Of a stretch of 64,000 nucleotides of DNA, positions 40,901-43,900 are shown piece by piece. The first letter of the stretch is position 1. Every line of letters starts with the position of its first letter. This DNA comes from Branchiostoma lanceolatum (lineage: Eukaryota; Chordata; Leptocardii; Amphioxiformes; Branchiostomatidae). The position numbers and the translations under genes are program-made. Where the stretch lies: assembly GCF_035083965.1 (NCBI RefSeq), contig NC_089725.1, positions 27,475,925-27,539,924 of the forward strand, read 5' to 3'. The notes below the pieces were generated by a model. That model was given only the letters and a program-made list of their open reading frames with translations. It did no database searches and was not told where the DNA came from.

Positions 40901-43900
40901 TGAGAAATGAGTTTATCTTGCTGTATTGATCCTTGATACGTTGATGAAAGTTAGACATCCATAATACAAAGTAAATCAAGCAACTGGGTAATTCTCTAAA
41001 GACAATCGTTTTTCTATCACTGATGAAAGATAGTGGATGCTATTTGAAACGTCTGACTCTTTAGAGAATTTATCCAGTATGTTGCTTCATTCATTTTGCA
41101 ATATTTCACTGAAAAAGATGCAATATCCACTTTGTTTTTGAGAAATGAGTAAGGGCAAACCTATCCGTATTGAACCTGGATATATCAATGAAGGTTAAAG
41201 TTAAACATCTGGGTAGAACAATAACATGATACAAGACAAGACAGGCAACTGGATCAATTCTCTTATTATAAGATAATTATTGCTTATTGAAACATAGTGT
41301 TTGCCTATCTCTTAAGAGAATTTATCCAGTTGCTTGATTTATCATGTAGTATTTCACTGAAATATTGATGCAATATCCACTTTGTATTCCCATAGCTGCT
41401 AGAACTCTTCGACAGTGAGGACCCCCGGGAGCGAGACTTCCTAAAGACAGTCCTGCACAGAATATATGGGAAGTTCCTGGGACTGAGAGCATTCATCAGA
41501 AAGCAGATCAACCACATCTTTCTTAAGTAAGTGCTCGATCTATATTTCTTGATTAGGATGTAAAGATAATCACAGAAAACTCCTGAGAGATGATGTGTTC
41601 CATATTTTCCTGTATTTTTGTTCTCTGTACAGTGTTGAGTATTCAAACCTTGTGTTAACATGAAACTGCTGGCATGTTGCACTAGCAATGGATGTCTAAC
41701 AGTGATGACATACATGGATGTATGGCAATATTGTTATATAACGTGACTTATATAGCATAAAGTACTGTGGCAGGTTTTTTTTAAAAGTAAGTGCTTGAAA
41801 ATGTCTTGAAGAAGGTCCCATATATAGTGCAGGTTGTGATTGCACTTTATGATGGCTGTGCTTTTAGCAGTGCTTCTGATATAGTAAAGTGGCCTATACG
41901 TCATACTAGGTAAAGTAGAGTCACTAGAGTGTACAGTATCATAAGGATAATTTCTCCAAGGTACATATAATATATAAAAGTAATGATGGATAGAGACCAC
42001 CAATTGTCAGAACCTAAGTTTGATACCATAAACTCATGATAAACTACAGATGGAGTATTTTGTACACTTGTACATAATGTATGCAGGCATATCACTAATA
42101 CAGTCTCTTCATCACTTTTTTCCAGATTCATCTACGAGACAGAGCATTTCAATGGAGTGGGGGAGCTGTTGGAAATATTAGGAAGGTAAGGTAGACTTGA
42201 CTCGAAGACTCGAATTAGCAGGGTGTCATAATACACCCCTATGGCATGACACCTCAATGTTCTAACACCCCCTATAATTATAAACCTTAAGTTAAAGTCG
42301 GTAGGAACATAGGGATGTCTGATCATAGGTGTGTCCATTTGGCAGACTGTACCTGTAGGTTAAAATGCTAATTCATGGTAATTGTAGTAGCTATGGTCTT
42401 GGATATTTCTACCATCACATCTCGAGACTTGCACCTGATTTCTTGATTTAGATTATTTCCAATATTATTGGTACGTTTGGTAAAAGGACTAATAATGACC
42501 ATCAAAACAACCTCTCCTTATATGTAGGTCAACTGTTGGGCCTGTCTAATGTTGCTTCAAAGTGATCAGCATATCTGTCATCTTTCCAAGAATTTAGTAA
42601 GATGTGAGGTGCTGTAAAGTACTGTAAAAGGCGAAATGTTCACAGTGGTTTTACCTTTTTTTTGCTCAGTAACCTCCTTACGGGGAAACCACTGCAAACA
42701 TTTCCATTTTTACAGTAAAACCCTGCATAGCAGTTTCAACTGCAAACTTAAAACTGCTATCTTAACACTCCGGATGCATTTTCTCCCCATCACGAAATCC
42801 CTGCAAACATTTTCCCATCTACAGTACTGTAAAGGCAGAAATGTTTGCGGTGGTTTTATGTTTGCGGTTTGCACGGTCAGCTCTTTGCCGCGAACTTAAA
42901 AGCACTGCGAAACTCTTTTTTCTCCTACCCCCTTGTCTACTATTGTCTCAAACGCAAACTTAAAATGACTGCGAACATTCCATTTTCTCCCCACTTCGAA
43001 ATTAAACCCATGCAAACTTAAATGCATTTACAGTATTGTGTTGTGCGATGGCCATACAAACTGTTGGTGCCTGTCAAATGACCTTCAACTGCTTGACTGC
43101 ACCCGAGGTCTGCTCAGCTTCAATCTTGGAAAGCCCACCTTTTAAGGAAACGTACCCCTCCTTCGCTTTCAAAGTAATATCTGAAGGAGCTGATGGCTTG
43201 AAAAGAGCGTTATTAAGGGAGTAATCGCTCGAGTAGATCCCCAACCTTGGGAAATATGTGACGGGCCTTCAGATATAACAAGCTGCTGTCAGAATCTTTG
43301 ATTTCCAAACTGAGTGAGCAATCTTTGAGAGCACTAATGTTCCCTCATCAGATACCGTCAGCCATCAGGCTTATGTGTTCTTATATGGACTTTTTCTGCG
43401 GTAATGACGGCTTTCAAAAATGTTATTGATCTTTTCGCTTCAGGCAGAAGAATGCCACATGATGTGAATGATAACTCTTTGTTCCCAGAAGTGTATTTGG
43501 ACACAAGCTTTGTCATAAGAAGTGCATATTGAGGGCATAGCAAAGATATCATTTTCATGGTTTCTGTGTGTAGAGTTTTCTAAGGAATATATTAATATGT
43601 TTATGCCACTGTAACTTACACGATGAGAACAGTTGCAGCCTCTGGCGCCCACACATGCCCTTAAATGTTTCTAGACATCGCTATACAATGTCAGTAACTA
43701 TTCTCTCACATGCGTAAAATGCAGAGAAAAGCGGCTTATTTGGTACTTATCTGTCGTAAATCAGTCAGATTGTAATCAAACACCTGCTTCCTCAGGGTTT
43801 GGTGAATGTCGTTCGAACGCGTTTAATTGTGTATTCGATCATGCGCGATGACATAGTAGTTTGTGAGTAAAATCACCCCTATGACGACATCAGTTTGTGT

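Follow-up and report, generated by a model that had tools for sequence, protein, structure and literature searches.

A probable relic of a minimal type I hammerhead ribozyme in a dispersed inverted-arm repeat of Branchiostoma lanceolatum

Is the hammerhead-like motif that recurs in a repeat family of B. lanceolatum a working ribozyme, the remains of one, or a product of nested hairpins that resembles one by chance? The question is raised by a window of 64,000 nucleotides (assembly GCF_035083965.1, contig NC_089725.1, positions 27,475,925 to 27,539,924), the whole stretch of DNA analysed here, in which an earlier note had fitted three copies to the order stem I, CUGANGA, stem II, GAAA, C-GUC and stem I. 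Our reading, to which we give a probability of roughly 0.7, is that the feature is a relic minimal type I hammerhead in a retroelement; the figure refers to its identity and not to its present activity. The features are collected in Table 1, in window coordinates.

The conserved core (C3, U4, G5, A6, N7, G8 and A9 with G12, A13 and A14) is complete in one of four copies, which we call copy A. Its 5' half consists of TCA (41017-41019), CTGATGA (41020-41026), an extra A (41027) and AGATAGT (41028-41034); after the loop GGAT, its 3' half consists of GCTATTT (41039-41045), GAAACGTC (41046-41053) and TGA (41054-41056). This is the part order of a type I hammerhead, and reading the sequence confirms the earlier placement of CTGATGA, stem II and GAAACGTC in hammerhead order within 41012-41060. 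Stem II (AGATAGT/GCTATTT) has six to seven pairs, two of the seven being G-U. Further out, 40990-41002 pairs with 41058-41070 over 13 bases with zero mismatches, so that stem I of copy A would comprise 3 bp, then an internal loop of 14 bases against one, then a long arm. Stem III is just the ACGU between GAA and C17; a loop is impossible within one molecule, and cleavage would therefore require a dimer. The sequence of copy A thus agrees with what had been claimed of stem III, namely that it is loopless, that ACGT is self-complementary and that a dimer is required.

In the best monomer fold (-36.3 kcal/mol, ViennaRNA) the GAAACG strand is paired with an upstream CGUUUU, and the hammerhead-compatible monomer fold, at -31.0 kcal/mol, is 5.3 kcal/mol worse. 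The ACGU duplex is weak in the same program: -1.7 kcal/mol alone and -3.1 kcal/mol with flanks. Given the competing fold and the weak duplex, the predictions make present-day activity of copy A doubtful. The long foldbacks fold far better than their shuffles (z -5.24 and -6.87), and for copy B together with its head no such advantage is seen, 36 of 200 shuffles folding equally well (z -0.97). A pseudoknot between loop II and the bases before stem I (GGAUG/UAUCC) was considered and set aside: on visual inspection copy B allows it and copy C does not, and it amounts to just three pairs in copy A.

C3, U4, G5, A6 and A9 are retained in all four copies, GAAACGTC in the three of four that reach that point, and an extra A between A9 and stem II is common to copies A, B and C. 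Stem I has 3 bp in copy A and 4 bp in copies C and D, and copy B is unable to form one; stem II has seven pairs in copies A and B, five pairs, a mismatch and one further pair in copy C, and is lost in copy D. The three-copy fit of the earlier note therefore holds for copy A, while copy B ends after stem II and copy C has lost G8. At 21427 the core CTGACGA and stem II are indeed present, but GAAACGTC and TGAC are not: the bases right after stem II are CAGGCCTCG (CAGGCCTCGAAATT), and so the TGAC/GTCA pairing claimed as stem I for that copy (here placed at 21422) is absent, whereas in copy C it exists as a 4-bp stem I. On the minus strand the core does read CTGACTA as printed; that this means the loss of the essential G8 had gone unmentioned. 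Also overlooked were the extra A after A9 in copies A-C, arm D and a separate site at 22770-22796(-). A model built from copies A, B and C recovers arm D, which had been left out of its building, at E 7.1e-5, with the next match at E 0.41; inside the tandem array described below the same model reaches 41105, 40853 and 40892 at E 0.15, 0.29 and 1.3, which is chance level. The site at 22770-22796(-), CTGACGAAGATCCCGTGGTGAAACGTC, has the exact core CTGACGA, an A after the core and GAAACGTC, and lies outside the repeat of copies A-D, whose arm query has no match there. Its stem II is about 3 bp, and it shows no gain in folding over shuffles (z 0.41). Read from 22811 instead, an overlapping version gains a 7-bp stem II at the price of an altered core.

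How often such a combination arises by chance was gauged with a descriptor that asks for the core, tolerates a single inserted base, and needs 4 bp or more in stem II, 3 bp or more in stem I and a short stem III. It was defined after the site had been seen, the extra A and the loopless stem III being allowed once observed, which makes the test a generous one. The descriptor has one match in the window and matches in 4 of 600 dinucleotide shuffles, falling to 0 of 600 once stem II has to reach 6 bp. The pattern CTGANGAN{8,38}GAAACGTC occurs twice in the window, where 100 shuffles average 0.01; with at most one mismatch the core-to-GAAACGTC pattern has five placements on four GAAACGTC sites, compared with an average of 0.175 over 40 shuffles. 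The compensatory changes that had been reported in stem II are real at two of the seven pairs, pairs 3 and 4, which change on both sides among copies A, B and C with pairing kept; 27 of 29 alignment cells are paired (93.1%), against 18.5 to 51.7% in slid registers. However, the register slid by +1 likewise shows such a double change at two pairs, and with three sequences the covariation score is equalled in 69 of 500 column shuffles. As far as an alignment of this size goes, covariation supports the hairpin and nothing further.

Of the Rfam hammerhead covariance models, which the earlier note had proposed to use, none matched at E <=5 over the window, nor at E <=10 on 40960-41110 and 27420-27620. 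The window search gave 11 matches, ten to microRNA models below their gathering scores and one to a lncRNA model, and in the sub-region searches some snoRNA, lncRNA and cis-regulatory models come up as well. We take the microRNA-model matches to be palindromes; long palindromes of this kind lie at 44025-44126, 38588-38716, 53004-53103 and 39554-39691. Remains of a reverse transcriptase, GIY-YIG domain or Penelope-like element were absent from the 58 translated stretches of the window that the domain scan took in; frames of at least 40 amino acids number 531 in 16000-56000 alone.

What carries the motif? A hand-made query for the repeat arm, with matches counted below E 0.001, gave 13 matches at six places (near 4.8, 21.4, 27.4, 31.0, 31.4 and 40.8-41.3 kb), and a seventh arm lies at 22186-22212. 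The stretch 40839-41388 consists of three head-to-tail units, two of about 210-240 bp and one deleted, with the motif intact in one of the three; G+C is 0.387 over the surrounding 4 kb (40001-44000). At both palindromic relatives (4741 and 31354) the flanks carry a direct duplication of 14 bp, and when these two were tested against random draws, flanking duplications of at least 12 bases turned up in 0 of 5000, a total that includes skipped draws spaced by less than 200 bases. The tandem run and the flanking duplications could be the residue of a small retroelement. We infer a short non-autonomous repeat of about 110-240 bp with inverted arms, dispersed and at one place tandem, and in its present state a mostly dead non-autonomous retroelement. 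When the family was searched for by pattern, 0, 3 and 0 loci came up in viral contigs and 0 and 1 in genome contigs; these four loci (L001-L004) share the searched word, but their printed flanks look unrelated by eye, and they were rejected as relatives. Separately, AGGCCTCGAAATTAAC adjoins copy B (about 21449, +) and another arm of the repeat (about 22180, -), as though a second element tended to sit beside the repeat of copies A and B.

Table 1. Coordinates of the hammerhead-type copies, their arms, the tandem units and the palindromic relatives
Feature	Position	Strand	Description
Palindromic relative without hammerhead	4741..4847	-	flanked by 14-bp duplication AACATATAGTTAAG
Head of copy A/B repeat	21351..21394	+	CGTTGATG...TACGCCAAAAA; upstream of copy B
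Copy B	21418..21447	+	core CTGACGA and stem II alone; stops where CAGGCCTCGAAATTAAC starts
Copy C	27467..27512	-	full architecture, 4-bp stem I, G8 = T
Copy D	27539..27571	+	inverted counterpart of copy C; G8 = A; most of stem II gone
Palindromic relative without hammerhead	31354..31470	+	flanked by 14-bp duplication AAGTTGTCCTTAAT
Tandem unit u1	40839..40936	+	internally deleted; borders by eye
Tandem unit u2	40937..41178	+	contains copy A; borders by eye
Outer stem I, 5' arm	40990..41002	+	AATTCTCTAAAGA; complementary to 41058-41070
Copy A	41016..41059	+	TCA / CTGATGA / A / stem II / GAAACGTC / TGA; predicted cut after C41053
Outer stem I, 3' arm	41058..41070	+	TCTTTAGAGAATT
Tandem unit u3	41179..41388	+	3' arm and tail as in u2 (82% over 84 columns); hammerhead region degraded

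According to the relevant passages of a 2020 review, minimal type I hammerheads occur by the thousand in numerous animal genomes, and their helix III usually has no non-conserved bases; they are mostly dispersed, some lie in the pseudo-LTRs of Penelope-like elements, they possibly cut as dimers, and their in vivo activity and role were 'still a mystery' (PMC7761336). Copy A has the features that these passages name, a helix III without non-conserved bases and type I topology, and lacks those of the canonical hammerhead (types I-III), having no stable closed stem III and no Rfam match. For this reason we file it with the minimal type I group, of which the motif at 41020 is, judging from its sequence, probably a mostly dead member. 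The motif is real and beyond chance, yet of a kind already known from animal retroelements, and in that sense largely ordinary.

As the passages cited describe them, the Penelope-like and dispersed minimal type I hammerheads (Cervera and De la Pena 2014; Lunse et al. 2017) resemble copy A in core, GAAA, reduced helix III and a place in non-coding DNA, and they too would possibly cut as dimers. Unlike those described there, copy A has no Penelope-like domain in the 58 translated stretches scanned, and it stands between inverted arms; its extra A after A9 may be a further difference. For a Penelope-like hammerhead of Anolis, the passages drawn on report that G8C abolishes cleavage (they cover neither G8 to T nor G8 to A), that hammerhead mutants had no effect on in vitro RNA insertion, and that the RNA was cut only with protein added and RNA-seq ends were absent from the cut site (PMC11167929). 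The extra A between A9 and stem II has a counterpart in the plus-strand hammerhead of CChMVd, which belongs to a viroid and not to an animal genome, and where, in the part of that paper used here, its cost in activity is given as moderate (PMC3705267). The amphibian type I hammerheads (axolotl HHR_Amex1 and newt satellite DNA) share a weak palindromic helix III and cleave better as dimers, although the cited passages give them one pair and a palindromic tetraloop where copy A has ACGU alone (PMC7229834).

A conceivable alternative, which we regard as possible but clearly less probable than our main reading, is that the repeat is a metazoan retrozyme proper, which would make unit-length circular RNA, instead of a Penelope-like fragment or satellite; the two readings overlap and differ in the carrier. 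The metazoan non-LTR retrozymes described in the cited passages have a type I hammerhead in short tandem units of low G+C, with self-paired RNA, and in this they resemble the present repeat (PMC7229834, PMC7761336); their tandem units of about 150-450 bp compare with three units here, one of them deleted. On the other hand, the published invertebrate retrozyme hammerheads mostly have a stable helix III, as far as those passages go (PMC7761336), and here helix III is absent and the intact motif is kept in one of the three units.

Less likely still is a DNA element of foldback or MITE-like type in which the likeness of the nested hairpins to a hammerhead is fortuitous, the conserved parts having been kept only through recent shared ancestry. 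The dominance of palindromes in the folds, the two palindromic relatives without a hammerhead, the lack of an Rfam hammerhead match in the regions searched and the non-significant covariation among three copies are all compatible with such an element; it accounts poorly for the rarity of the combined motif in shuffles and for the return of the extra-A core with GAAACGTC at 22770-22796(-), outside the repeat of copies A-D.

On the sense strand the tandem run is closely followed by a B56-like (PP2A regulatory subunit) exon, which starts at about 41396, and evidence that the motif serves this gene was not seen in the window. That copy A should still be at work in its gene, cutting the B56-like pre-mRNA as a dimer, is highly improbable: the motif is on the sense strand and the match of u3 reaches 41388, a few bases short of the AG (41394-41395) that precedes the exon, but a second molecule would be required, the core-adjacent stem I is just 3 bp, the best fold differs from the hammerhead fold, and copies B, C and D in the window have lost parts, which gives no sign of upkeep. 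As to the gene itself, closely similar B56-like exons lie at 29013-29145 and 41396-41527 (+), followed by further pieces in two sets (30029 and 32053; 45646, 46984, 47677 and 48950, just below cut-off), with one more piece near 19935; the sets suggest a tandem partial gene duplication or alternative exon sets. Upstream of the tandem run, a CCCTAA-rich stretch (40514-40566, within 40500-40580, +) stands between CAGACACCCCCTAT and ATAGGGGTGTCTG and so resembles the interior of a small inverted repeat; a telomere-linked (Terminon-like) origin or telomere remnant was rejected, the stretch being upstream and in its own apparent inverted repeat.

We return to the relic minimal type I hammerhead. In an ancestral active copy the inverted arms would have lengthened stem I, and helix III, impossible in one molecule, would have formed between two transcripts or two tandem units, which is possible since ACGU is self-complementary. 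Each RNA in the dimer would have been cut after GUC, giving a unit-length RNA that a helper, for example a Penelope-like element, may then have moved; this last step is the least sure, and the Anolis results cited above weigh against it. Cleavage may in this way have aided the movement of the element. The earlier note had seen a hammerhead, either decayed or active as a dimer, with a retroelement as its carrier. The part order, the ACGU, the dispersed copies, the 14-bp duplications at two relatives and the published minimal type I hammerheads agree with that description, while the carrier is something we infer rather than see, and folding is unfavourable. 'Decayed' is well supported: the family is mostly dead in the window, and copy A alone of the four keeps every conserved core base.

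A bolder proposal, which we hold only tentatively and think improbable, is a lineage of short palindromic retroelements that combines the small tandem units of a retrozyme-like element with a hammerhead as in Penelope-like elements, lacking helix III and working only as a dimer. In such a lineage the inverted arms would lengthen stem I enough to keep the cut ends from separating, and the dimeric RNA could then undergo both cleavage and re-joining.

With three of its four copies in the window missing needed parts, the locus itself is of little importance. What it points to is of wider use: a family with the motif between inverted arms, short tandem units and target-duplicating relatives would test the role of dimer cleavage in movement.
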